Shown here piece by piece: positions 1,181-15,356 of a DNA stretch of 22,767 bases (position 1 is the first letter of the stretch; the number at the start of each line of letters is the position of its first letter). Below the pieces are notes generated by a model, which saw nothing but the letters and a program-made list of their open reading frames with translations, was not told where the DNA came from and made no database searches. This DNA is from a virus. The translations under genes and the position numbers were made by a program. The stretch is from the IMG/VR virus record IMGVR_UViG_3300010389_000154, positions 1-22,767 of that record; one strand, written 5' to 3'.

Positions 1181-2976
1181 TGCCTTATACTCAGGTTGCT
1201 AATCTAGATTTTGAAGATATTAAGACAGCTCTGAAGGATTACCTTAGAGCAACGTCAGATTTTACTGATTATGACTTTGAGGGTTCGGCAATGGCAACCC
1301 TCTTAGACACACTCGCCTATAACACCTATTATACGGCGTTTAACACTAATATGGTAGTCAATGAACTATTCATTGATTCTGCCACCTTGAGGGACAACGT
1401 AGTAGCGATTGCGAAGCAGTTAGGGTATAGACCCAAGAGTGCCACTGCTCCAGTCGCCTACGTTTCTTTTACAGCAACCTATGGCAACCAAACCAATGAT
1501 ACCGAACTCCTACTGAAGAAAGGAACTGGTTTCATTGCAAACTATGATAATGCAATCTACCAATATGTCACCTTAGATGATGCAAAAGGTCAGGTGTCAA
1601 ATGGTGTTGCAACATTTACTAGTGTTCCAGTGTATGAGGGAACACAAGTTGTCAATACATTTACTGTCAATACTGCTCTTAAGAGTCAGAGATTTATTCT
1701 TGACAACCAGAATATTGATACTACCACTATTAGCGTTAGAGTATTCCCCAGTGGTGGTAGTTTTAGCGAACCATATCTTGTAGCAGATAACATTCTTAGT
1801 GTCGATGGAGACTCTAAGATTTTCTTCTTGGATGAAATTGAAGATGAGAGATATGAAATTATCTTAGGTGATGGAGTTCTCGGAAGAAAGTTAGAGAATG
1901 GATCTAGAGTAGAAGTATCTTACATGACCACTAATGGTCCTGCTTCTAATGGCGTCAAAACATTCATTTTCTCTGGTGTATTAGAAAATGCTCAGGGAGT
2001 ATCTCCAACTAACATTACAGTCAATATAACGGGGTCTGTAGCGTCTTCTGGGGGCGAAGATATAGAATCTACCGCTAAGATTAAATTCAACGCTCCTAAG
2101 TCCTATGGAGCGCAGGATAGAGCGGTTACAGCGCAAGACTATGCTGCTATTGTAAGAGAGATTTATCCTTCAACCAGCGACATTATTATCTTTGGTGGAG
2201 AGGATCAGGTTCCACCCGAGTATGGAAAAGTATTCATTGTCCTCAAACCAAATGATGCTGCTTTCTTGACCTCGTTGACAAAACAACAAATCATCGAAAA
2301 TCTGAAGAAATATGTTGTTGCTTCTGTAGAACCTGTCATTGTAGATCCCTCTATTCTCTATGTTGAACTAACTAGTAAGATTTACTACAACAGTCAAGCA
2401 ACGGATAAGACACCTGCTCAGATTAGAGACGAAGTTATCGGTTCTGTTCAGTCTTACTTGGATACATCAGACACAGAAAAGTTCAATGGCAAGTTTAGAT
2501 ACAGTAAAGTAGTTGGTGTTATTGATGACACTGATCGTGTTATTAACTCAAACCTTACTACTGTCATGATGAGGAAAGATTTCTACCCTCTGTTAAATTC
2601 TACATCATATTATGAGATCTGTTTCCAGAACGCATTTGATGAAGATTGTGATGAACCAGTCCTGTCATCAACAGCGTTTAGAGTAACTGAATACCCAAAT
2701 TTTGATGTCTATATCGAAGATAGGTCTGGCAAAATTGTCCTATATAGACTAGATAGCGTAACTGGTGAAAAGGTTGTCCTTGACAGCGATATTGGCGATA
2801 TTGATTATGTGAATGGCGAACTTAAGATGTATTCACTGACTATTATCAAGGGAAGTTTCTTTGATAATCGTATCTCTGTAAAAGTAAAACCACTTTCTAA
2901 TGATATCAAGGCATTCCGAGAGGTTTATCTTGACGTTGATGTTGCGAATTCCTCATTCACTGCATACAAAGAGTAA
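1180..2976 (+). CDS. gp6: baseplate wedge subunit gp6 (baseplate J-like)
   Basis: This is the wedge protein that forms the inner baseplate ring in T4-like phages, related to gpJ of P2-type phages. It has 598 residues against 660 in T4. The N-terminus carries the hallmark segment FTDYDFEGSAMATLLDTLAY (about residues 28-47), followed by NTYYTAFNTNMVVNELFIDS and a conserved LRDNVV-x-AKQLGYRP-x-SA. The middle shows ILGDGVLGRKLENGSRVEVSY (about 226-246) and GGEDIESTAKIKFNAP, followed by the RAVTAQDYAAIV block (to about 325), which are typical baseplate-J signatures. The C-terminal part is beta-rich and probably contacts gp7 and gp53. The start overlaps the gp25 stop (TAATG) with no strong ribosome binding site, so it is likely coupled to gp25 translation. 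The next gene begins four bases after the stop. The assignment is secure. Confidence 0.96.
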   Translation: MPYTQVANLDFEDIKTALKDYLRATSDFTDYDFEGSAMATLLDTLAYNTYYTAFNTNMVVNELFIDSATLRDNVVAIAKQLGYRPKSATAPVAYVSFTATYGNQTNDTELLLKKGTGFIANYDNAIYQYVTLDDAKGQVSNGVATFTSVPVYEGTQVVNTFTVNTALKSQRFILDNQNIDTTTISVRVFPSGGSFSEPYLVADNILSVDGDSKIFFLDEIEDERYEIILGDGVLGRKLENGSRVEVSYMTTNGPASNGVKTFIFSGVLENAQGVSPTNITVNITGSVASSGGEDIESTAKIKFNAPKSYGAQDRAVTAQDYAAIVREIYPSTSDIIIFGGEDQVPPEYGKVFIVLKPNDAAFLTSLTKQQIIENLKKYVVASVEPVIVDPSILYVELTSKIYYNSQATDKTPAQIRDEVIGSVQSYLDTSDTEKFNGKFRYSKVVGVIDDTDRVINSNLTTVMMRKDFYPLLNSTSYYEICFQNAFDEDCDEPVLSSTAFRVTEYPNFDVYIEDRSGKIVLYRLDSVTGEKVVLDSDIGDIDYVNGELKMYSLTIIKGSFFDNRISVKVKPLSNDIKAFREVYLDVDVANSSFTAYKE

Positions 2977-2980
2977 GTAA

Positions 2981-5900
2981 ATGCCTGCTGTAAAGACCAA
3001 GAGAATTTCAACTCTGATTGAATCGCAGCTTCCAGAATTCATTACTAACGAATACGAACTTTTTGGTAAGTTTGTAGAGAAGTATTATGAATCTCAGGAA
3101 GTTCAGGGCGGCACTTTGGATGTTATTAGTAACATCCAAAAATATGCTGATATCGATTTCTACGAGAAAAATCTCTTAAAGCAGAACGATACTCTAGTAT
3201 CAAACATCAGTCAATCTGATTCTACAATTGTAGTAGAAGATGCTCAGTCCTTCCCAGAAAAAAATGGGTATATCAGGATTGATGATGAGATCATTTTCTA
3301 TGAATCTAGAACAAACACAGAGTTTTTAAATTGCTCTAGAGGAGTTAGTGGCAACACAACTCTTGGAGATCTTTATGACTCTACTAATTTTGTAAGCACA
3401 ACTGCTGCATCTCATACTGCTGGTAAGAAAGTTCATAATATCAGCAATTTGTTTTTGTATGCATTTGTAAAAAACTTTGAGAATCAATACCTTGCTTCTT
3501 TTCCAGAGAAGTATCTTAGAGGAGAAGTAGATAAGAGAACTCTTATCAAGAACATTCAGAAGTTCTACAAAGCAAAGGGAACATCTAGTTCTATTGAATT
3601 TATCTTCAACACTATTGTTGCAAGAGATACAAGCAATAAACCCAAAGTATATAATCCCAGAGATTTTACCTATAAAGTATCAAATGCTGATTGGATCAAT
3701 GTTTATGCACTAAAGTGCAAAGTTGTATCTGGAAATCCAAAAGATTTGATTGGAAAGAAAATTGTTCAAGAACCTACAGATGAGTATGGATATTCTTCAG
3801 CAACAGTAGATAATGTTTATACAGAAGGAACTTCTGATGGTGAAGTTATCTGGAATATTGTTCTAGCTCCAGAAACTGTAAATGGTGAGTTTGCAATATC
3901 CACAAAAACTAGACTAGAAAGAACTCTTTCTTCTACTGCAACAACTGGTGATAGAATTGATGTATTTTCAACTATAGGATGGGAATCTATTGGAGAAGTT
4001 CTTATTGGAGAAGAAGTTATTAAATTTGATAGTAAAACTATCAATCAGTTTTTCATCAATAAGAGAGGATCTACACCAGTTACTCACAATGCAGGAGAAT
4101 CTGTATATAAAACTGCTATCATTAGATCTGGTGGTGTAGTTTTACTAACTCTAGGAGTTGTATATAATTTAACTGCAGAGTCAGAAAGTCCATATTCTTC
4201 TCCTGGAGATAAAATTCAGGTATCTGATCCTGGATTCCAAACTGCAGATCCTAGAATTGTAAAAACAGGAACTAATCAAACAAGATGGTTCTTAAATAAT
4301 TGGCAACCAGTTTCATCTCCAACAAATCTATCGGTGCAGTCTTCCCTGCAGGGAGTTCCAACAAATGTTTCTGCTATATTAGAAGATGACCAGTATTACT
4401 ATATTACATCTTCTGGATATCCATCTTACAGTATTCTAGATCGTTCCGTTGTATCCGAAAACGTTCAGGATCAAAGACTTCTCAGAATTATCAGAAAACA
4501 ACCAACTGTAACAACGGAAGTATATAAGACTCCAAAGGCAGATGTTGGTATTTTACTGAATGGTGTTCGCATCTACGGATATAAAGATAATGACAGTATT
4601 CGATTTGGAAAACTGCAAGAGATTCGTGTTAATACTAGAGGAAGAAATTATGTAAAACCTCCTACTGTTTTGATTGATGGTGTTTCAAATAAAGCAAGAG
4701 CAGTTTTAACTGGATCTGTTGTTGATCGTATTATTGTTGATACTACCGACACTTTCCTCACTACTCCAACTGTTGAGATTACTTCTGGAAGAGGAGCAAA
4801 GGCGAGAGCAGTTGTTACAGGCGGAGAAATTACAAGTATTGTAGTAGAAGATGCAGGACGATTCTATTCATCCCCTCCAAGAGTTGTAATCAGAGACAAT
4901 GCTGGCAGAGGTAGATTTGCAGAATACATTGCCAATGTTGATTCTGATGGCACTATTGCTGGATTTGATAAAATTTCTGGTGGAACTCTTTACACACAAG
5001 CAAATGTCGAAGTAGATATTGTTGCTGTTGGAGAGGGTGCTACTGCCACCCCCCTACTAAAAGAATGGAATAAAAATAGATTTGAGAAATATAAGTCAAA
5101 ACTAGATAGTCAGTTTGGTTATGTTTTCGAGAACTATAATAATGTTCTCGAATATGGTTATGGACAACTTGCCAATCCTAAAGCACTAAGAGTTCAATTA
5201 AATGATAACTTGAACTCTGCTGATACCGAACCAGTAAATAAAACTCACTCACCTATCATTGGTTTTGCTTATGATGGCAATCCTATCTACGGTCCTTTTG
5301 GACATCAGAATCCTTTAGATTCACAATCACCTATTGTAAGGATGACTTCTAGTTATTCTTTGCGTGGTTCTCGTGAAGATGGACCTTCAGTGAGAGAGTA
5401 TCCTCTTGGCACATTTATTGATGATTACAGATATGTTCATAAGAGTGGATCTTTAGATCAAAATAATGGAAGATTTTGTATTACGCCAGATTTTCCAGAT
5501 GGAGTTTATGCTTATTTCTTGACCATTGATAGCAATCAAGTTCCCAAGTTTCCATATGTTATTGGTGATGGGTTCTATTCACTTCCAGTGGATAGCAACT
5601 ACAATTCTCAAATCAATCAAAATGATATCCCCAAAACTGCAAAGAGATTTTATCTTCCTGGTATGCCTAGGAATGGTGAAGGTCTAGTTGCTCAAATTAA
5701 TGAAGTAAAGACTGGATTTATTGATAGTATCCTAATTGATAGATCTTCAAGTAACTTCTCACCGAATTGTAAAATTTATTTTGATAATGCTTCAACAGAA
5801 GGTAATGATGCCGAAGCTTTAGTTGAAACGGTAAAGGGCAAGACAGTAAATTTCTTAGAAAGTAAGGAAGACAAAGTAGTAAAACTAACAACAATTCAGA

Positions 5901-8900
5901 GTGCTTACTTATTTGCTAATGATACATTAAGACAACCAGCAAGTGGTGCTTCAGGAAACATCGTTGGAACTGTTACTGGTGATAATATCATTGTTCTTAG
6001 AAATGTAGTTGGAACTTTTAATAATACTGGAACTTTCTCTGCTGACATTAAAACTTTCCAATTAACGGTAGATCAAGACAGCAATTATACAAAAGGTGCT
6101 ATCTTAAGTCTAACTGATGGTATCAATCCTCCTATTGCTACGGCAGAAATTCTTGAAGGAACTAGCAGACAGAATACAGTAAAGATAAAAGTCTTATCTG
6201 GAACTTGGATAGTCGATGATGACTACTTCTTACAATCTAGTAATCTTTTTAATACTTCTGGATCAAAAATTGTAACTTTAGTATCTCTTAGTGATAACTT
6301 AGAACCATTTGAGGTCAATCAAAGTGTTGCTTTGGTTGAAACTAATGAAGAACATGGTCTTGGTGTTGGGGATGAAGTTGATATTAGTATCTTCCCAGAT
6401 GATTCCACCAAAGTAAAAACATATTACTTAAGAAAAAGACTATATCAAGAAGTAACATTTAGAACTCCAAAGAACTCCTCAGAAATTGATTATGATGGTA
6501 TCGGAAGATTTACTATCTTAAATGGTGGTGCAGACTATACGCCAGGAGTATACGAGAACGTTCCATTAACTGGAGGCAGTGGAACTGGGGCAACAGCAAT
6601 TATTACCGTTTCCAGTGCTAAAGTTGTCAATGATATCCAAATTCAGAATGGCGGAAGTGGGTATGCTAGAGGAGACTATCTTGGTGTAGATGATGATCAA
6701 CTTGCAAGGTCTGGTGGTTCATTAAGTTCTTCACGACTTGCTGTTTATGTAGATCACGCTGGTGTTTCTAGAAGTTCTGCTTCCATGAGAGTAAAATCCG
6801 AAAAAGGATTCTCTGTTGGAGACTTACTAAGTGTTGGATCTGAAGTTGTAGAAATTTTAGCAATTAACGGACCAAATATCTCTATTGAAAGAGGACTAGA
6901 AGGAACAGAAGCAAAAGATCATTACAATGGCGAAAAAGTAAGTCTATACAAACCAAGATACAATTTTACTCCAGATTATAAAATTACTAATAATCTTGGC
7001 ACTGGATATGTAAGATCATACAATCCAGATACCCAAGTAGCAACAATTGTATATGATTACTCAATCGAAAAGAGAACAGCAGAAGAATTAACTATTAGCA
7101 CTACATTCTTTGATTCTAGTTCTCCACAAAGACTTGTATCTGTAAATTCAGTTACTGATGTAGATTATAAATTTGAGATTTCTGAAGATAATTCTTCATT
7201 TGTGCCAAATCCAAATATTGATATTCAGGAGTATTACAAATACGTATTTGATACTTCACACTCGTCTCTTACAGGAACTTATTTTGATATGAGTCCAAGT
7301 AAGAATTATAATCTTATCACATTAGAAAAAACTGCTTCAACTATTCTCCCTGGAAATTCTGGAGCATTTACCGAAGTTAAATTTGGTTTTGGTTCTAGAA
7401 TAGCACAAAACAATTATACCGTAAAGAGGGGAACAAATTTTAGCAATTTCTATTATTTTGATAGGAATGGTATTGTAAATTCGGAAGATGCTTTCTTAAG
7501 TATCATCGATGATCCGTTACAAGGTAAAAAGAGACTTAACTATGTAACCCCAACCAGATTTGTATATGACATCACAAGAAGTCCTCTCTGGGATGGATCG
7601 GGATCTATTTCATATACCACTAGTGGTCAGTTTGCTGTTGGTGAAATCAATTCCGTTAAGATAATCAATTCAGGTGAAAACTATAAAAAAGTTCCTTTAA
7701 TTTCTGGTGTTGATCCTTCATCAGATTTTATAGGAACAGCAACGGTATTATTTGATACTACCACTAAAGTAATTACTTCCGTCAGGATTGATGAGTTGGG
7801 ATCAAATTATGTGAATCCCATTGCAATCATTACTGATGGAGATGGAGTAGGAGCTAAATTTAAAGTTGTTCAGCAAAATGGAAGACTATTTTCTATTAGT
7901 GTTGAAAATCCTGGAAGAGGATATACATATGCTCCATCAATTGTAATTGTTGAATCCGATGTAGAATTATATGCTTCTGGAAGTGAAATTGGAATTCCTA
8001 GAAGTGTTAATATTATTAATAATGGTGGTGCATACCATTTAGATAAAACAGTTTCATCTGAAGTATCATCTCAATATACTGTATCTTTAAGAAACTTTAA
8101 TGGTCAGTTCCAAAAAGGAGAAGTGATCACACAATCGATTAATGGAAATGAGGTTCTCAGAGCTAGAGTTTCTGAATATAGAAATGGATCCAATTTGTTA
8201 AAATTAGAAGGTGTTACTGGTATTATCAGAGAAGACGTAGAGATTATTGGAAAAATTTCTAGTGCTTCTGGAACTGTAGTAAGAATTTTTGTATCTAAAT
8301 TCAATACAAACATCACCAGTTTCTTTGATAACCTTGGATATTATAAATCAGATAAAGGAAAACTTGGCGTAGCAAATCAAAAGATAACTGATAGTTTCTT
8401 CTATCAAGACTATTCATATGTTGTTAAATCCAAAACATCAATTGAGCAGTGGAGAGATTTAATTAAATCAACAACTCACCCTGCTGGATTTAAACTATTC
8501 GGTCAGGTTGACGTAGAAACATCAGCAAATACAGAGATGCCTGTTGCTGGTGATAGAAAAGCAGATACGTTTACCACCATTCAACTCTGGGATCCAGAGA
8601 AAAACAAGATTACTAGTGATATCAAACATAGAGTAGTAACTCAAACTGTGCAGAAAGTAGAAAACACTAGAATCCGCAAAGGACAAGGTTCTGCTGCAAC
8701 ATCAGAGTTCAACTTTAATGAAACTCGTGCTTTCTCTTTCACTCTTGCTGCACCATTTGATGGTTACTTTGATGGTGATGGAAGACTAAGAGGAACAACT
8801 ATCTTCCAAGTTCTTGATGATTTTAATAGACCATTTACTCCTATTAGTGCTGAGAGTTTAATTGTAACTCTCGATGGTATTATTCAAGAACCTGGGGTAG

Positions 8901-11900
8901 CATATACTGTAAATCAAGATAAAATTATATTTGCCGCTCCACCACTTGGACCTGGAGTAAAATTAACAGGGCAAAGTTCTTCTGATACTACACCATACAA
9001 AGGAACTGCATTTTTAGGAAGAGCATTCTACTTCAGAAGAAATGAGTATAACTCAAGATATATCAGAAAGATAAGAAATATTTTCCAAAGAAATGGAAGA
9101 TGGATAGATGCCGCTAATCAAATTGAAAGAAATGCACAGTTTATTATCGAAGAAGCGGTTGGATATGGAAAACAATATTATCCATCATTAGATTGGAGCA
9201 CCAAGTTAGATGATTATCAATTTGACATTGGATACATTCTTGATGCATATCAACATGATTTGAGATTTGGCGGTAACGCAAAAACTGTAGATTACGCAAA
9301 TATTTTTAATACTGCTGATTATATCACAAAAAACAAATCTGCTTCCTTAGATATCTTTAAGTATGCAACCAAATTAGCAAAATCTGCTATTAGAAATTGG
9401 GATTATATTGATGAGAATGTAACTTATATTCAGGGTTCTAAACAAATTAATGTTTCTTCCACTGAAAATCTAGTTATAGGAATGCATGTCAGTTCTGGTA
9501 GGGCATATCCAGTGGGAACTAAAATTGTTTCTATTGATGGTCCTGCAACTGTAACGCTATCAAATGCAGCATTAGTAAATTCTGGTGTTGGACCTGGAGG
9601 TGCTGCAGCTGGTATTACAACTTTATCTGGATCTACAGGAGGAAGTAATCTAGGACTACCAACCAATACAGGTGCTGTTAATCCTGGAGATACTTTTGCT
9701 GTAGAACCAGGAGATATACTTTCTGCTCCGCTATCTTTCTCTGGTGTAGAAAGTGCCACTTTCTTCTTAAGTGGTATTAATAATGGAACTTTCTATGATG
9801 CATCAAATCTAATATCACAAAATAAAAAATATTTACAGGAAGAAGTAAGTGAGTATATTTACGCAAATTATGCTCTCCCATCTGGAGATAAGGCAAAGTG
9901 TTATCGTGATCTTGGATTCTTAATTGATGCTGTTGTATATCATTTAAGATTTGGCGGCAATGAAAGAGTTGTTAATTTCGCTCAACTTTATTATACAAAT
10001 AGAGGTTATCCATATGGCGAAGAATTAACTTCTATCAATAGAAATGCAACTGAAACTGCAGCTGCAATTGCTGCTTGGGATCAATTAGCAGTTCTTATGA
10101 ATTCTGCTATGAGAAATACTCTTGGTGCAGGAACTTATACATCTATATCACCATTTGTAGATCCTTCTGTTGCTGCTGATAGTCAATTCCCATATTGTGT
10201 TGAAGTTGAGTCGGCAATTAATACTATGATTGATATTGTAAAAGATATTCTTGCAAATGGAACTGGGGTTGTTGAAGTAGCAAGGCAAAATGAAAACAAA
10301 ACAGGATATTGGTCCTCTACTACAACTTACTCAAACTATAATATCATCTTAGATCCTCAACTTAATGCAAAAGAGTGCGAAGATGTTATCTCTTCAATGA
10401 ATTTGTTGTATACAAATCTAAATGACACATTGAACAAGGTTTTGGTTACAAAAACTTTACCAGACTTTATAGACGGAGAAACAAAAGAATTTGATCTATT
10501 CTGGGATAATGGAGATCCAGTAATTACAGAAGAAGATGAAAGATTATTACTAACAATTAATGCCGTTCTTCAAGAAACAAAATACAATGCTTCATATCCT
10601 GGTGATGACTCTTACTATATTGATAGAACAGTAGTTCCTAACAAACTAGTATTTGATGTTGCTCCTATTTGGGATCAATATGAAGGGGCAAAGACTTTAG
10701 GAGAACCAACTGCAGTTGAGAAAGTATCTGGAGTTGGTATTGGAAATTATAAGAGACTTACTATTGATTCTTTCCTAGTTAACAATATCAGAAAAGGTCC
10801 ATTCTTAATTCTAGACTTAGAAGATTTAACGGTTGTTAATGTAGAGCAACCAGATTTCTTGCTGGTTTTTGTAGATGGTGTTCTTCAGAAAGAAGGAGTA
10901 TCTTATACTGTTTCTGGTCCTAATATCTTCTTCGAGTTCCCAGTAACGGAACAAATGAAGGTTGATATGAGATATCTCTATGGCAGAGATGTTGGACAGA
11001 TTCTTAATATCTTTGACTATAATCCAGATGCATATTATGCTAAGTCAGAAATAGTATTAAACACTACTGGCGGTGTAGAACAATTTATCAATAAGTCTTG
11101 GATGGGTCTAAAAGCTGGATCGCCAATACAAATTTTCCAGTTTAATCCAAATGGCACTCGTAATATTATTGGAACAATACTTGATTATAAGATAAATGGA
11201 AATATCGTAACCTTAAAGTGTTTTGGTAATTCTGCAGAACTACTTCAAGGAACTGATGTTTATATTTGTGTTTCTGGAAATTATGATACCCTCTATACTG
11301 TAATCACACTTGATGCTGCTGGATCTAGTATCACATACGAAAGAGATGAAGATGATAGATTATTATTAAGCGGACTAGATCAAGTCTGGAGAGGAACATT
11401 CTTCAGAAGATGGTATAGAAATCCATTCATTAGTCTTTCGAATAATACTCAAATAAGAGTAGAGGGCGAAGATAATTTTAGAAGAATTAAAACACTTCCA
11501 TCGGTTCTTACTAGTAAAGAGCAAAGATTACAGCAACAAGTATCTAATTCGTATTTTGGTCAGGTAGATATTGAGTCATATAATGGCACTACCAGAGGTG
11601 AAGGATTAAGTATTGTCGCAAAAATAGAAAATGGTGTTGTTGTGGATCTTGAGTGGAATCAGCGTAGTTATGATCCTATTACACAACCAACTGCTTATCA
11701 ATACTTCACTCCACCAGTAATTAATTTTATACCAGAAGATGGCAATGGTGGTGGTGCTAGAGCAGAAGTAATCGTAAATAAAGGTCAAGTAATTAGCGTT
11801 GAACTAATTGACGGCGGATCTGGATATACCAAATCCCCAAGAGTTGTTGTTGCAAGAAGATACGATGTAATTGAAGAAACTGATATTGGAGTTTCTGTAA

Positions 11901-13486
11901 TTAATATTGCTATAAATGCAAATCCAGTTTCATTAACTACCACAGGATTCTCTACAATCAGTGTTCTTGGTAACCAAGTATCTGGAATCAACACATTTAC
12001 CTCTATTCTTTTTGAGAGTCCAATTGATAGCAATAGAGTTATTACTACTATTGTTACACCAAAGGAAGAAGAAGTTAGTGAAGATTTAGCAGCATCTCTA
12101 GATGAGATTAAAACAACTGTCAACAGTCAAAGACAAGCAACACCAATAGATACATTCTATGGAGGAACTGAAATTACTGTTCGTATCAATACTCCATATA
12201 TTGTTGGTATTGAATCTGAATCTACGTTAAGTGCTACCGCAACGAGAGAGATTACAATAACAGTAGAAAATCTCATTCCAAATGATGCTCTATCTAATGT
12301 TAATTTCTTCGAGGTCGGCGCATTCTTGGATGTTCCTCTCGATCCAACAGACGATATTGTATATGTTGCAGATACTACAAAATTCAAGACAAATGGATAT
12401 CTACTTATTGGTAACGAAGTAGTAAGATACTATCGCAAGTATATTGATCGTTTCTTAAAGGTACAGAGAGCACAAAATAACACAGTTGCTCAGTTCTGGC
12501 AAGCAGGAACTTTCTTAAGACAGATTCCAGATCCAGTATCTATCGCATTTGGTGGTATTTCTGCAATCGAATCTGAATCTCAAACCGTTACATTAAAAGG
12601 CGGTTCAGAGATTGGTGGGTCTGAAAGAAAGTTACAAAAACAAGTTGTAACTCCTTCCACAACTGTTACTACTGTTTCAAGAGTAATTACAGAAGAACTG
12701 CAACCACAAGTTGATGTTCAATCTATCAGTCAAGTTGAGACAAAAGTATTCTATAAATTAGAACCATCTGCAAATAACGTTCAATCTTTCGAGACAATAC
12801 ATAATCAAACTGTTGTTCTAAACCAAGTTCAGACTGTACAGAGTGAATTTACTATCGAGAAGCAGCAACTAGAAGTTTTAGTGATTCCACCACCAAGCGG
12901 TGTAATTGATGGTTATGAAGAAAGCGTATTTATTGATGATCCTGTCAAAACCAGATTGAATGGATTTGTAGACTTGTTAGATGATTATGGTGTCGTAAAA
13001 AGAGATGGAACAGTAATTTATATACAAAATGAAGTATTCTCTGCATTCTCACAATATGTTGGAAACTATACCACTGGAAACGCTGGACATGTTATTAATC
13101 ACTTTAATGGTATATTTGATGATGGAAGTGCTGATGTATCTGGATTGACTTTATTAGAACTTTCTACATATTATCCATCTCTCACACTAAGAGATTTTAC
13201 AGAAAGAGCGGATTCTAGTTATACTCTTGCTGGAGATAAATTTATTTTAATGCCACCAAGTATTCAGAATCCTGTTGCGATCAGTTCTTCTACTGGAACT
13301 ATTGGTAACAGTGTAGTTGTTCAAGATACGACATACTTCGCAGATAATGGATATCTATTTACTTCAAGTGGATCTGTTATCCAATATACATCCAAGACTA
13401 ATACATCTTTCGAGGGTTGCACTCTATATTCTGGACCAGATTCCATCACCAGTGGTGACGAATTAGTTCCATTCTCAATCTCCTAA
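2981..13486 (+). CDS. gp7: giant baseplate wedge protein, gp7-like with large insertions (3,501 aa)
   Basis: This virion protein sits in the gene 7 position between gp6 and gp8. T4 gp7 (1,032 aa) initiates wedge assembly and binds gp8, gp6 and gp10. The N-terminal helical block (FLYAFVKNFENQYLASFPEK, then FYKAKGTSSSIEFIFN at 195-210) and the following beta segment to about 315 resemble the late part of T4 gp7 as I recall it. Residues 1808-1841 (SYVVKSKTSIEQWRDLI, then THPAGFKLFG) resemble a later T4 block. Between them lie a repeat unit at 325-370, beta modules at 545-690, 1175-1236 and 1557-1690, and a YHYH domain at 753-868. After them come DGV-x-Q-x-PGV-x-YT modules at 1959-1997 and 2624-2670, two LRFGGN modules at 2017-2150 and 2273-2430, a beta module at 2904-2958, and repeat units at about 3120-3170 and 3436-3501. 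Arginine is mostly AGA. The frame is unbroken. The reading frame is certain; gp7 homology is an inference from pattern and position. Confidence 0.9.
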   Translation: MPAVKTKRISTLIESQLPEFITNEYELFGKFVEKYYESQEVQGGTLDVISNIQKYADIDFYEKNLLKQNDTLVSNISQSDSTIVVEDAQSFPEKNGYIRIDDEIIFYESRTNTEFLNCSRGVSGNTTLGDLYDSTNFVSTTAASHTAGKKVHNISNLFLYAFVKNFENQYLASFPEKYLRGEVDKRTLIKNIQKFYKAKGTSSSIEFIFNTIVARDTSNKPKVYNPRDFTYKVSNADWINVYALKCKVVSGNPKDLIGKKIVQEPTDEYGYSSATVDNVYTEGTSDGEVIWNIVLAPETVNGEFAISTKTRLERTLSSTATTGDRIDVFSTIGWESIGEVLIGEEVIKFDSKTINQFFINKRGSTPVTHNAGESVYKTAIIRSGGVVLLTLGVVYNLTAESESPYSSPGDKIQVSDPGFQTADPRIVKTGTNQTRWFLNNWQPVSSPTNLSVQSSLQGVPTNVSAILEDDQYYYITSSGYPSYSILDRSVVSENVQDQRLLRIIRKQPTVTTEVYKTPKADVGILLNGVRIYGYKDNDSIRFGKLQEIRVNTRGRNYVKPPTVLIDGVSNKARAVLTGSVVDRIIVDTTDTFLTTPTVEITSGRGAKARAVVTGGEITSIVVEDAGRFYSSPPRVVIRDNAGRGRFAEYIANVDSDGTIAGFDKISGGTLYTQANVEVDIVAVGEGATATPLLKEWNKNRFEKYKSKLDSQFGYVFENYNNVLEYGYGQLANPKALRVQLNDNLNSADTEPVNKTHSPIIGFAYDGNPIYGPFGHQNPLDSQSPIVRMTSSYSLRGSREDGPSVREYPLGTFIDDYRYVHKSGSLDQNNGRFCITPDFPDGVYAYFLTIDSNQVPKFPYVIGDGFYSLPVDSNYNSQINQNDIPKTAKRFYLPGMPRNGEGLVAQINEVKTGFIDSILIDRSSSNFSPNCKIYFDNASTEGNDAEALVETVKGKTVNFLESKEDKVVKLTTIQSAYLFANDTLRQPASGASGNIVGTVTGDNIIVLRNVVGTFNNTGTFSADIKTFQLTVDQDSNYTKGAILSLTDGINPPIATAEILEGTSRQNTVKIKVLSGTWIVDDDYFLQSSNLFNTSGSKIVTLVSLSDNLEPFEVNQSVALVETNEEHGLGVGDEVDISIFPDDSTKVKTYYLRKRLYQEVTFRTPKNSSEIDYDGIGRFTILNGGADYTPGVYENVPLTGGSGTGATAIITVSSAKVVNDIQIQNGGSGYARGDYLGVDDDQLARSGGSLSSSRLAVYVDHAGVSRSSASMRVKSEKGFSVGDLLSVGSEVVEILAINGPNISIERGLEGTEAKDHYNGEKVSLYKPRYNFTPDYKITNNLGTGYVRSYNPDTQVATIVYDYSIEKRTAEELTISTTFFDSSSPQRLVSVNSVTDVDYKFEISEDNSSFVPNPNIDIQEYYKYVFDTSHSSLTGTYFDMSPSKNYNLITLEKTASTILPGNSGAFTEVKFGFGSRIAQNNYTVKRGTNFSNFYYFDRNGIVNSEDAFLSIIDDPLQGKKRLNYVTPTRFVYDITRSPLWDGSGSISYTTSGQFAVGEINSVKIINSGENYKKVPLISGVDPSSDFIGTATVLFDTTTKVITSVRIDELGSNYVNPIAIITDGDGVGAKFKVVQQNGRLFSISVENPGRGYTYAPSIVIVESDVELYASGSEIGIPRSVNIINNGGAYHLDKTVSSEVSSQYTVSLRNFNGQFQKGEVITQSINGNEVLRARVSEYRNGSNLLKLEGVTGIIREDVEIIGKISSASGTVVRIFVSKFNTNITSFFDNLGYYKSDKGKLGVANQKITDSFFYQDYSYVVKSKTSIEQWRDLIKSTTHPAGFKLFGQVDVETSANTEMPVAGDRKADTFTTIQLWDPEKNKITSDIKHRVVTQTVQKVENTRIRKGQGSAATSEFNFNETRAFSFTLAAPFDGYFDGDGRLRGTTIFQVLDDFNRPFTPISAESLIVTLDGIIQEPGVAYTVNQDKIIFAAPPLGPGVKLTGQSSSDTTPYKGTAFLGRAFYFRRNEYNSRYIRKIRNIFQRNGRWIDAANQIERNAQFIIEEAVGYGKQYYPSLDWSTKLDDYQFDIGYILDAYQHDLRFGGNAKTVDYANIFNTADYITKNKSASLDIFKYATKLAKSAIRNWDYIDENVTYIQGSKQINVSSTENLVIGMHVSSGRAYPVGTKIVSIDGPATVTLSNAALVNSGVGPGGAAAGITTLSGSTGGSNLGLPTNTGAVNPGDTFAVEPGDILSAPLSFSGVESATFFLSGINNGTFYDASNLISQNKKYLQEEVSEYIYANYALPSGDKAKCYRDLGFLIDAVVYHLRFGGNERVVNFAQLYYTNRGYPYGEELTSINRNATETAAAIAAWDQLAVLMNSAMRNTLGAGTYTSISPFVDPSVAADSQFPYCVEVESAINTMIDIVKDILANGTGVVEVARQNENKTGYWSSTTTYSNYNIILDPQLNAKECEDVISSMNLLYTNLNDTLNKVLVTKTLPDFIDGETKEFDLFWDNGDPVITEEDERLLLTINAVLQETKYNASYPGDDSYYIDRTVVPNKLVFDVAPIWDQYEGAKTLGEPTAVEKVSGVGIGNYKRLTIDSFLVNNIRKGPFLILDLEDLTVVNVEQPDFLLVFVDGVLQKEGVSYTVSGPNIFFEFPVTEQMKVDMRYLYGRDVGQILNIFDYNPDAYYAKSEIVLNTTGGVEQFINKSWMGLKAGSPIQIFQFNPNGTRNIIGTILDYKINGNIVTLKCFGNSAELLQGTDVYICVSGNYDTLYTVITLDAAGSSITYERDEDDRLLLSGLDQVWRGTFFRRWYRNPFISLSNNTQIRVEGEDNFRRIKTLPSVLTSKEQRLQQQVSNSYFGQVDIESYNGTTRGEGLSIVAKIENGVVVDLEWNQRSYDPITQPTAYQYFTPPVINFIPEDGNGGGARAEVIVNKGQVISVELIDGGSGYTKSPRVVVARRYDVIEETDIGVSVINIAINANPVSLTTTGFSTISVLGNQVSGINTFTSILFESPIDSNRVITTIVTPKEEEVSEDLAASLDEIKTTVNSQRQATPIDTFYGGTEITVRINTPYIVGIESESTLSATATREITITVENLIPNDALSNVNFFEVGAFLDVPLDPTDDIVYVADTTKFKTNGYLLIGNEVVRYYRKYIDRFLKVQRAQNNTVAQFWQAGTFLRQIPDPVSIAFGGISAIESESQTVTLKGGSEIGGSERKLQKQVVTPSTTVTTVSRVITEELQPQVDVQSISQVETKVFYKLEPSANNVQSFETIHNQTVVLNQVQTVQSEFTIEKQQLEVLVIPPPSGVIDGYEESVFIDDPVKTRLNGFVDLLDDYGVVKRDGTVIYIQNEVFSAFSQYVGNYTTGNAGHVINHFNGIFDDGSADVSGLTLLELSTYYPSLTLRDFTERADSSYTLAGDKFILMPPSIQNPVAISSSTGTIGNSVVVQDTTYFADNGYLFTSSGSVIQYTSKTNTSFEGCTLYSGPDSITSGDELVPFSIS
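5237..5584 (+). other. YHYH-domain coding segment inside the gp7-like gene
   Basis: Residues about 753-868 of the giant protein read as a YHYH-type domain. The segment opens with HSPIIGFAYDGNPIYGPFGH (residues 756-775), the diagnostic G-x-A-x-DG-x-PIYGP-x-G motif. It continues with DDYRYVHKSGSLDQNNGRFC, then TPDFPDGVYAYFLTID and ends near FPYVIGDGFY. The domain occurs in secreted and phage structural proteins; its biochemical role is not established. Here it lies within the long stretch inserted between the two gp7-like blocks. Confidence 0.8.
9029..9430 (+). repeat. LRFGGN helical module, copy 1 (protein-level repeat)
   Basis: Residues about 2017-2150 of the giant protein form a module predicted to be helical. 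Its order is an arginine-rich start (FYFRRNEYNSRYIRKIRN), NAQFIIEEAVGYGKQYY, then GYILDAYQHDLRFGGNAKTV (residues 2085-2104), and a final helix with AKLAKSAIRNW. It is rich in aromatic and charged residues. Copy 2 begins about 120 residues later. Confidence 0.75.
9797..10270 (+). repeat. LRFGGN helical module, copy 2 (protein-level repeat)
   Basis: Residues about 2273-2430 repeat the order of copy 1: ISQNKKYLQEEVSEYIYANY, then DLGFLIDAVVYHLRFGGNER (residues 2310-2329), followed by NFAQLYY and a helix with LAVLMNSAMRN. The LRFGGN motifs are spaced 228 residues apart. Similarity is clear in the core but the DNA is well diverged, so the duplication is old. Confidence 0.72.
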
Positions 13487-13544: not shown

Positions 13545-15356
13545 ATGGCTGCTATCATCTCTGATAAGTTTAGAATTTTTAACGCTAAACAATTCCTGGA
13601 ATCCTTGACAGAAGGACCTAGTGAAACCAGTGCAGAACGCACTAGAATGTATTTCTTCGTTGGAAGACCTCAACCTTGGAGGGCATATCTAGAAGTATAT
13701 TCCAAGGGTTCTACCAACTTTACCGTTGGCAATGAAGTTTATGTTGGAACTTATGGTTCAACTGCTTTCCGTGCCACAGTTGCCGCTGTTTATGATAGTG
13801 CCCTCCTTTTAACCGACGTTTTTGGCAGCAATGGTATTGCTTCAGTTCCTACTCTTGGAAGCGACTTAAAAGAAACTGCAGATGGTGGTGCCACTGATAC
13901 TGGAGCAGTTGCTAAGACTGGTGTTTATCGTTACGGAACAGAGGATATCCCACCTCTTCCTCTAGATAACCAGAGAGAAAAACTAGGTCTTTATGATGAG
14001 ATTATCGCTGCTAAGCGTATTACTGATGCATATGCAAGAACAGTTATTCGTCGTTATAACTGGGACCTAGTTGCTAATCCAAAGTTTGACATGTGGAAGC
14101 CTGACTATTCTGCTACTCCTGGTGGCGGTGGTCAAGTTGGTAAGCAGACTGCAACTGCACAAGCAAGCATCGCTGATGCTAAGTTTTATGTAATGAACTC
14201 TGATTACGAAGTGTTCAAGTGCCTTTATAATGGCGAAGGTCCTGGAAACCTAACAGGACAAAACGCGACAGAGCAACCATCAACATCTGGTGCAAACTAT
14301 AACGGTGCTACTGGTCTTTACACCGAAACTTCTGGTGCTGGTTACATTTGGAAGTATATGTATACCATGCCAACCGATGACGTTCTAAGATTCCTTTCTT
14401 CGGACTTCATGCCAATCGTTCTCCCAACGAACAACACTCGCGTAGCAGTAAATGGTCTTGCTGTTCCTGGTGCTATTGATGTTGTTCTAGTTGAAGATGC
14501 TGGTCTAAATCTTCCTGCTTCACAAACATTCTACACTGGAATCAAAGGTGATGGAACAGGTGGTGTAGTAGAAATCATTACCGATGGTTCTGGAACTATC
14601 ACTTCTGCTAGTGTAGCAGCAAGAGGTCAGGACTACACATATGCTAACATCCTTCTCGGAAATGGCAATCTCTTTACTGATGCTGGTCTAACCACTCCTC
14701 TTGGAACTGCAGCAAATGCAACTGGAGCTCTAGAGGTTGTAATGCCACCTCAAGGTGGTCATGGTTCGGATCACGAACAAGAACTAAATGGCAAGCGCGT
14801 AATGACAAACATTCGCCTAACCTATGCTGAAGGTTCTGGTGATTTCCCTGTTGATAACGATTTCCGTCGTATTGGTATTATCAAAGATCCATACAACTGG
14901 GGAACTACGACTTTCGCTACTGCAGATACTCTAACTGGTCTAAAGTCACTTAAAATTACTGGTGCTACTGCAGATTATATCCCAGACGAAACCATCACCC
15001 AAACGGTATCTGGTGGAAGCGCATACGGAACTGTTGTTTCTTGGACTCTGGATAGTGGTTCGACAACGGATGGTGTTCTTAAGTATATCCAAACCGTAGA
15101 TGCACACACCGATCAAGGTGTTGTAAGAGCATTCGAAAGCAATGGATCAAATGCTGTTTCTGGTGGTCTTTCCGCTGCAGCAGGAAATGTGGATACTGGT
15201 TATGCAGGAACGCTTCTAGGAGCAACATTTGCTGCTGGTCTAGCAACTCCCGAGATTGAGAATAACTCTGGTGAAGTTATCTACATCGAAAACCGTCGCC
15301 TCATCACTCGTGCTCCTGACCAGATTGAAGATATCAAACTAGTCATCGAGTTCTGA
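13545..15356 (+). CDS. gp8: baseplate wedge subunit gp8 (enlarged)
   Basis: This is the wedge protein that in T4 forms a dimer bound to gp7 and gp10. It has 603 residues against 334 in T4. Landmarks match T4 gp8 as I recall it: SDKFRI at the N-terminus, FFVGRPQPW (37-45; T4 ITFGRSEPW), LGLYDEIIA followed by VIRRYNWD (147-174; T4 ends in PRRDWG), GYIWKYMYTMP (266-276; T4 GYVWEYLFEIP), and the final SGEVIYIENRR with APDQIEDIKL (575-598; T4 SGEMIYMENR). Extra length comes from insertions at about 46-133, 311-374 and 466-530, which resemble beta modules in the neighbouring giant genes. The ribosome binding site is weak (GGAA at 13531-13534). Arginine uses CGT and CGC about as often as AGA, unlike the flanking giants. 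A late promoter precedes it and a terminator follows. The assignment is secure. Confidence 0.95.
   Translation: MAAIISDKFRIFNAKQFLESLTEGPSETSAERTRMYFFVGRPQPWRAYLEVYSKGSTNFTVGNEVYVGTYGSTAFRATVAAVYDSALLLTDVFGSNGIASVPTLGSDLKETADGGATDTGAVAKTGVYRYGTEDIPPLPLDNQREKLGLYDEIIAAKRITDAYARTVIRRYNWDLVANPKFDMWKPDYSATPGGGGQVGKQTATAQASIADAKFYVMNSDYEVFKCLYNGEGPGNLTGQNATEQPSTSGANYNGATGLYTETSGAGYIWKYMYTMPTDDVLRFLSSDFMPIVLPTNNTRVAVNGLAVPGAIDVVLVEDAGLNLPASQTFYTGIKGDGTGGVVEIITDGSGTITSASVAARGQDYTYANILLGNGNLFTDAGLTTPLGTAANATGALEVVMPPQGGHGSDHEQELNGKRVMTNIRLTYAEGSGDFPVDNDFRRIGIIKDPYNWGTTTFATADTLTGLKSLKITGATADYIPDETITQTVSGGSAYGTVVSWTLDSGSTTDGVLKYIQTVDAHTDQGVVRAFESNGSNAVSGGLSAAAGNVDTGYAGTLLGATFAAGLATPEIENNSGEVIYIENRRLITRAPDQIEDIKLVIEF

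Follow-up and report, generated by a model that had tools for sequence, protein, structure and literature searches.

Phycobiliprotein-like modules in a giant baseplate-position protein of T4-like cyanophages, with candidate pigment sites

Phycobiliproteins (PF00502; e.g., C-phycocyanin alpha, TIGR01338, beta-phycocyanin, and phycoerythrin) share a light-harvesting fold in which Cys84-x-Arg86-Asp87 (with Cys82 as the beta-subunit cysteine) provides the covalent bilin attachment and bilin-contact residues. A phycobiliprotein-like domain within a large multidomain scaffold is also known from ApcE, the cellular phycobilisome core-membrane linker. On the viral side, the closest described systems are T4 gp7, a protein of about 1030 aa encoded in the order gp25-gp6-gp7-gp8, and phage CpeT, a T-type bilin lyase known as an auxiliary metabolic gene that is thought to act on host phycoerythrin; the CpeT of P-HM1 reportedly (Gasper, in 2017) binds phycoerythrobilin with no transfer to host beta-phycoerythrin. 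The phage modules described here are this known family, the phycobiliproteins, in a new setting, a virus particle. They resemble phycobiliproteins in helices B, E, F, G, and H, in the K-C-x-R-D signature of module 2 and the glycine after helix E, and apparently in a cysteine that opens helix H of module 2, the candidate counterpart of the one in beta subunits. Unlike phycobiliproteins, they are embedded and repeated in virion proteins of 900-7300 aa, have no matched helices X/Y, carry Asp for Arg93, and show a diverged F-G region, many degenerate copies and, in some modules, a beta domain in the G-H loop. The bilin-binding domain of ApcE (4xxi) is among the Foldseek matches, with the difference that the scaffold here is a phage baseplate/tail protein. 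A literature search, covering neither subscription papers nor automatic database annotations, found no report of phage virion proteins with phycobilisome or phycobiliprotein domains, and an earlier notice of such domains in virions could exist.

The window, i.e., the whole stretch of viral DNA that was analyzed (22,767 nucleotides), carries the following features, residue numbers being those of the giant protein.

788-1180, + strand: gp25 baseplate wedge subunit, context (ORF and PHROG)
1180-2976, + strand: gp6 baseplate wedge subunit, context (ORF and PHROG)
2981-13486, + strand: giant structural protein of the virion (3501 aa, phrog_4406) in the gp7 baseplate-wedge position (ORF, PHROG match, synteny)
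9056-9430, + strand: module 1, residues 2026-2150, phycobiliprotein-like, helices B-E-F-G without helix H (PF00502, AlphaFold, Foldseek/VIA)
9230-9277, + strand: first motif GYILDAYQHDLRFGGN, residues 2084-2099, second half of helix E and E-F turn (alignments)
9431-9763, + strand: putative beta domain, residues 2151-2261, with VIGMHVSSGRAYPVGTKIVS (DSSP of the model; order G-beta-H in S-PM2 and AG-345-P14)
9764-10291, + strand: module 2, residues 2262-2437, phycobiliprotein-like, helices B-E-F-G-H (profiles, AlphaFold, Foldseek/VIA)
9899-9910, + strand: C-Y-R-D of module 2, residues 2307-2310, aligned with Cys84-x-Arg86-Asp87 (sequence alignments, conservation)
9914-9961, + strand: second motif GFLIDAVVYHLRFGGN, residues 2312-2327, second half of helix E and E-F turn (alignments)
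10196-10198, + strand: Cys2406, opening helix H, putative counterpart of beta-subunit Cys153/155 (no variation among 42 orthologues, end-anchored position, motif spacing)
13545-15356, + strand: gp8 baseplate wedge subunit, context (ORF, synteny with S-CAM4)

The earlier note on this DNA had placed the motif in a baseplate protein, and the gene order gp25-gp6-3501-aa protein-gp8, which is the same in the annotated S-CAM4 and matches the place of gp7 in T4, bears this out. PHROG 4406 (virion structural protein) matches the 3501-aa protein end to end, phrog_2885 (baseplate wedge subunit) matches it at E 5.6e-214, and baseplate-wedge PHROGs match parts of it; a search of PDB with the whole protein gave no match at E 0.01. 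The module-bearing protein is annotated as gp7 in P-HM1 and P-HM2. By gene order and profile matches, the 3501-aa protein thus holds the baseplate-wedge gp7 position of a T4-like cyanophage, and its physical place in the baseplate is predicted from this. At 3501 aa, it has more than three times the length of T4 gp7, which is without the module, whereas the cyanophage protein has both the phycobiliprotein-like modules and a YHYH domain (PF14240, E 6.3e-32; residues 753-855, window 5237-5545). In the cluster-C phage S-CREM2, the wedge protein at the gp7 position was detected in the measured virion proteome (PMC10665884). The first ORF of the window spans 21-491 and encodes 156 aa.

The LRFGGN motif occurs exactly twice in the 3501-aa protein. 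Taken by itself, the 16-residue motif match (9/16 identical) is at chance level for a protein of 3501 residues, as shuffled copies gave at least nine identities in 12 of 30 trials. The duplication is instead established by whole modules: the module 1 family aligned with the module 2 family over 107 columns (hhalign, 99.7% probability, E 9.5e-26), which is not at chance level; we reject a chance repeat, and the duplicated LRFGGN module proposed before is thereby confirmed. The second motif lies at 2312-2327 as previously given and the first starts at 2084, not at 2085. A common helix order, also claimed in the earlier note, holds through helix G, the final helix H being present in module 2 only. 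The motif had been called strictly kept, which was taken to imply a structural or binding role. Both copies are retained in 42 IMG/VR orthologues, that of module 1 as an invariant H-D-x-R-F-G-G-N; in module 2 only G-G-N is invariant and LRF gives way to LKF, LKW, or LKQ. LRFGGN itself is the end of helix E together with the E-F turn, the counterpart of YxLxxGG/GD in phycobiliproteins.

No domain family could be named at that time; the duplication and the fold kinship of the two segments hold, and a name can now be given, that of the phycobiliprotein fold. AlphaFold2 modeled the tandem with a mean pLDDT of 77 (pTM 0.55) and module 1 alone with a pLDDT of 70 (pTM 0.63). Phycobiliproteins filled all of the best 50 Foldseek matches in PDB for both models with probability near 1, at best E-values that are modest (1.7e-3 for the tandem, 4.2e-2 for module 1). 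The VIA-align matches listed were phycobiliproteins for both modules as well: module 2 superposed on a cryptophyte phycobiliprotein beta chain with Z 15.5 (2.4 Å, 136 residues), and module 1 reached Z 11.7 (3.5 Å, 113 residues; another match 2.2 Å, 105 residues). As the match of module 1 stops near chain residue 150, this module has the fold and ends before helix H. Among predicted viral structures with the module fold, those named by organism (E < 0.001) are cyanophage tail or structural proteins. Both modules are thus predicted to have a phycobiliprotein fold, and the expectation that the two segments share one is borne out through their common phycobiliprotein targets rather than by direct superposition.

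Sequence comparisons that make no use of structure lead to the same family. PF00502 (Phycobilisome) matched residues 2026-2069 of module 1 with 24.0 bits (cut-off 22.2) when a 431-aa region was scanned, a score that falls to 16.5 with the whole 3501-aa protein; a Pfam scan of module 2 alone gave no match, and 37 of the 42 orthologues were matched at E up to 1. The same 431-aa region yielded 11 phmmer matches among PDB sequences at E up to 10, all of them phycobiliproteins (best E 0.0068), with KCYRDLGFLIDAVVYHLRFGG pairing with C-phycocyanin alpha. A profile built from 28 diverse phage modules (A3) recovered C-phycocyanin alpha from PDB at E 2.6e-7 along chain residues 39-159 (ca. 120 residues); its best 49 distinct sequences were all phycobiliproteins and the first unrelated chain appeared at E 0.05. 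In hhalign comparisons with a set of six phycobiliprotein sequences, of which the beta-phycocyanin one is identical to 1I7Y chain B, module 2 types reached 96% (E 4.6e-9) and module 1 reached 73% (E 3.1e-5), and in NCBIfam phycocyanin alpha was the best weak match for three of the five modules scanned. The alignment sets the module K-C-x-R-D-I-G-Y on the phycobiliprotein K-C-A-R-D-I-G-Y. Homology of both LRFGGN modules to phycobiliproteins is close to certain. A convergent or merely common helical arrangement could be considered, given that helical folds can reach middling Z-scores by chance and that module 1 attains Z 11.7 and a Foldseek E above 0.04; however, the structure-free profiles (E 2.6e-7 and E 4.6e-9), with no other family above noise, and the K-C-x-R-D-I-G-Y correspondence make it scarcely credible.

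The two modules differ at the candidate pigment sites, which are absent from the earlier note. Module 2 keeps the chromophore signature Cys-x-Arg-Asp, whereas module 1 reads Y-Q-F-D at this place (D-D-Y-Q-F-D), its chromophore cysteine being replaced; it is without both cysteines and without helix H. The end of helix H in the model (model residue 419) aligns with beta-phycocyanin residue 172, and if the helix is ungapped, Cys2406 (model residue 400) would fall on beta Cys153. Relatives have PECQNIATTIEGYFEQIF in helix H, and C-x6-I-x-G-Y-F is spaced as in beta-phycocyanin GDCSALMSEIAGYFDR / CSALMSEIAGYF. The equivalence is one of position and spacing, since a 27-residue helix-H profile used alone found no phycobiliprotein in PDB; on these grounds Cys2406 apparently matches beta-subunit Cys153, the site that T-type lyases serve (PMC10452541). 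The features of alpha-beta assembly that we looked for in the modules (helices X/Y, Arg93) are missing: helices X/Y lie outside the match, module 2 aligning from chain residue 32 onward, and the invariant Arg93 of the alpha-beta contact is replaced by Asp in both modules and, across the family, mostly by Asp/Glu.

Between the modules, the beta segment had been placed at about 2164-2186, and VIGMHVSSGRAYPVGTKIVS starts at residue 2165. Rather than a linker, it is probably a domain inserted in the G-H loop, to judge from S-PM2 and AG-345-P14, where a beta domain lies inside one module with helices G and H on either side; in the window the helix H that would follow the beta domain has been lost, which accounts for its absence from module 1. 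The segment (window 9431-9763) has the pattern VIGMxVSSGRAxPxGTKIVSI, and a similar domain occupies the G-H loops of S-PM2 and AG-345-P14.

A profile search and a copy count, suggested together with the original observation, revealed modules in many cyanophages, often several per protein. Collections were scanned with single modules and an alignment (A5) as queries, and the census comprised 391 fetched loci with 1126 module matches, of which 333 long ones were non-redundant at 80%. With four different modules, tblastn returned 75, 272, 354, and 383 phage records, all of them Synechococcus phages, Prochlorococcus phages, cyanophages or one marine Kyanoviridae fragment. Genomes have four to five matches in S-H38, S-CREM1, P-SSM4, and P-SSM7 and 11-13, some partial, in Syn1, S-PM2, and S-CAM4; the virion proteins that bear them range from 900 to 7300 aa, and some modules share proteins with beta-helix and other tail-fibre domains. 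No match to the module profile was found in T4, KVP40, P-SSP7 (a cyanopodovirus) or HTVC008M (a pelagiphage), the last of which is assigned by NCBI to the same family, Kyanoviridae, as module-bearing phages but has a different host. These results show a domain family, often with several members per protein, in the tail/baseplate proteins of most T4-like cyanophages. A scan of bacterial and archaeal genomes placed modules on four contigs only (L307-L310), from three marine MAGs labeled Rhodobacteraceae, Proteobacteria, and Planctomycetaceae; we discount these as a cellular source, the contigs being most likely cyanophage DNA that was binned in.

Across the non-redundant set, the helix-E cysteine is kept in 247 of 302 modules (missing in about a fifth), the helix-H cysteine in 177 of 201 and Asp87 in 282 of 301 (94%). 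Arg86 is kept in 137 of 302, with Asp there in 108, and the full C-x-R-D in 130 of the 301 modules scored. By relative entropy (333 modules), which weights rare residues, the two cysteine columns rank first and second; when rare residues are not favored in this way, the columns of GGN, Asn13, and Asp come out above them. Pigment-site residues are thus partly kept and antenna-assembly residues are lost.

The phage under study is known from its 22.8-kb window, and the relation between modules and bilin genes was drawn from other cyanophage genomes. Among 29 genomes selected by name, the presence of CpeT matched that of modules in 28 (18 with both, 10 with neither), i.e., CpeT was found in 18 of 19 module-bearing and in none of 10 module-less genomes (Fisher p 5.5e-7, ignoring kinship); the CpeT of ACG-2014f was counted by annotation, as its score lies below the Pfam cut-off. 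Nine of ten genomes in a second panel, for which the outcome had been predicted in writing beforehand, agreed, and CpeT was also present in all of seven additional complete genomes that had been selected because they have modules, two of them with two copies. The latter are the complete, module-rich environmental genomes with loci L381 (G016) and L324 (G018), each with two CpeT genes. On the gp23 tree, four module-less cyanomyoviruses fall in one clade, leaving only two independent pairs (sign test p 0.5), and because of so few independent events the CpeT-module link, though suggestive, falls short of proof. Only 1-5 kb separate cpeT from a module-bearing tail gene in the S-PM2-like group, in contrast to P-HM1, Syn9, and S-SM1, where it is not near such a gene. 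The sole exception in the 29-genome panel is S-SKS1, which has a module and no CpeT. An S-type lyase was considered as an explanation and rejected: a search of S-SKS1 for CpeS found none, and no module was found in the cluster-C phage S-B68, for which the S-type lyase CpcV has been reported (PMC10665884). Bilin reductases were likewise dismissed as partners of the modules, as their presence does not follow them. The S-SKS1 module sits in a shorter tail-fibre protein (L262, minus strand; 928-aa frame) that has a beta-helix-like start and this one module with NCADD and SCANV cysteines.

The best overall explanation, to which we give about an even chance, is that of phycobiliprotein-derived tail modules whose intact copies bear bilin and whose degenerate copies are structural. 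An ancestor would have taken the domain from a cyanobacterial phycobiliprotein and then multiplied it. Copies that keep Cys-x-Arg-Asp and the helix-H cysteine, e.g., module 2, would have a bilin linked to them covalently. This bilin would come from the host or from phage HO1/PebS/PcyA, and host lyases or the phage T-type lyase CpeT would attach it; copies like module 1, their sites lost, would be structural only. For module 2 itself, the kept cysteines, the Asp and CpeT speak for a bound bilin, and the case is about evenly balanced. Counting against a bilin are the loss of Arg86 (half of the modules being without the full signature), the missing alpha-beta contacts, S-SKS1, S-B68, the bilin reductases, the small number of independent pairs on the gp23 tree, and the failure of the helix-H profile alone to find phycobiliproteins. 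The strongest competitor is a pigment-free scaffold, in which the captured fold was multiplied as a helical spacer or adhesin and the cysteines and Asp serve folding, capping or assembly. The persistence of module 1 and about a fifth of the copies without the helix-E cysteine, the loss of Arg86 in over half of the modules, the copies' sharing of proteins with beta-helix and other tail-fibre domains and the failure of bilin reductases to track the modules all agree with such a scaffold, to which we assign somewhat less than an even chance; it accounts poorly for CpeT tracking the modules and for the top two relative-entropy columns being exactly the cysteines aligned with bilin attachment sites.

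The cysteines could also form a disulfide that stabilizes an extracellular tail domain, again with no pigment. Virion proteins are exposed to an oxidizing medium, and the two cysteines are indeed associated (137 modules have both, 9 have neither, and 24 have just one; Fisher p 1.1e-4), yet these 24 modules keep a single cysteine, the phycobiliprotein sites, whose bilins are some 34 Å apart, are too distant for a bond in the same fold, and the Asp at 94% is left without explanation, so that we regard a disulfide as improbable. Still less probable is mimicry, in which the domains would imitate host phycobiliproteins so as to bind a lyase, a linker or another phycobilisome factor of the host while the cell is being infected or afterwards: it fits the restriction of the modules to cyanophages, but they sit in virion proteins at baseplate/tail-fibre positions that act outside the cell, contact residue 93 is changed, and Prochlorococcus phages carry them too, their hosts having no phycobilisomes (PMC2984593).

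Coming back to bilin-bearing tail modules, a pigment in the tail might protect or tune it, e.g., in light-dependent adsorption, which is documented for several cyanomyoviruses (PMC2984593, PMC5082946); such a role for the module pigment is speculative. That cyanophage virions are biliproteins with a light response of their own, their bilins being attached during infection, and that CpeT has the phage tail proteins as its substrate instead of, or in addition to, the host antenna, is a broader proposition that we hold to be rather unlikely. If the modules were pigmented, they would be a new kind of virion component, and if the virion were the acceptor of phage bilins, this may explain why phages have pigment-making and pigment-attaching genes; were the adsorption role true as well, the unexplained light-dependent adsorption of cyanomyoviruses would gain a candidate sensor (PMC2984593, PMC5082946). 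If no bilin is bound, the modules still show, strikingly, how the fold of a photosynthetic antenna became a viral building block. A common and so far unnamed domain of the tail/baseplate proteins of abundant marine viruses gains a name, and a light-harvesting fold is seen reused in a virus particle.

A minor observation concerns the S-PM2 RefSeq record (L092 7584-12411, NC_006820.1), in which some 16 tRNA genes are listed inside the 11.3-kb tail-fibre CDS. ARAGORN found no tRNA inside this CDS and nine just upstream (2410-4330), and the listed positions look displaced.
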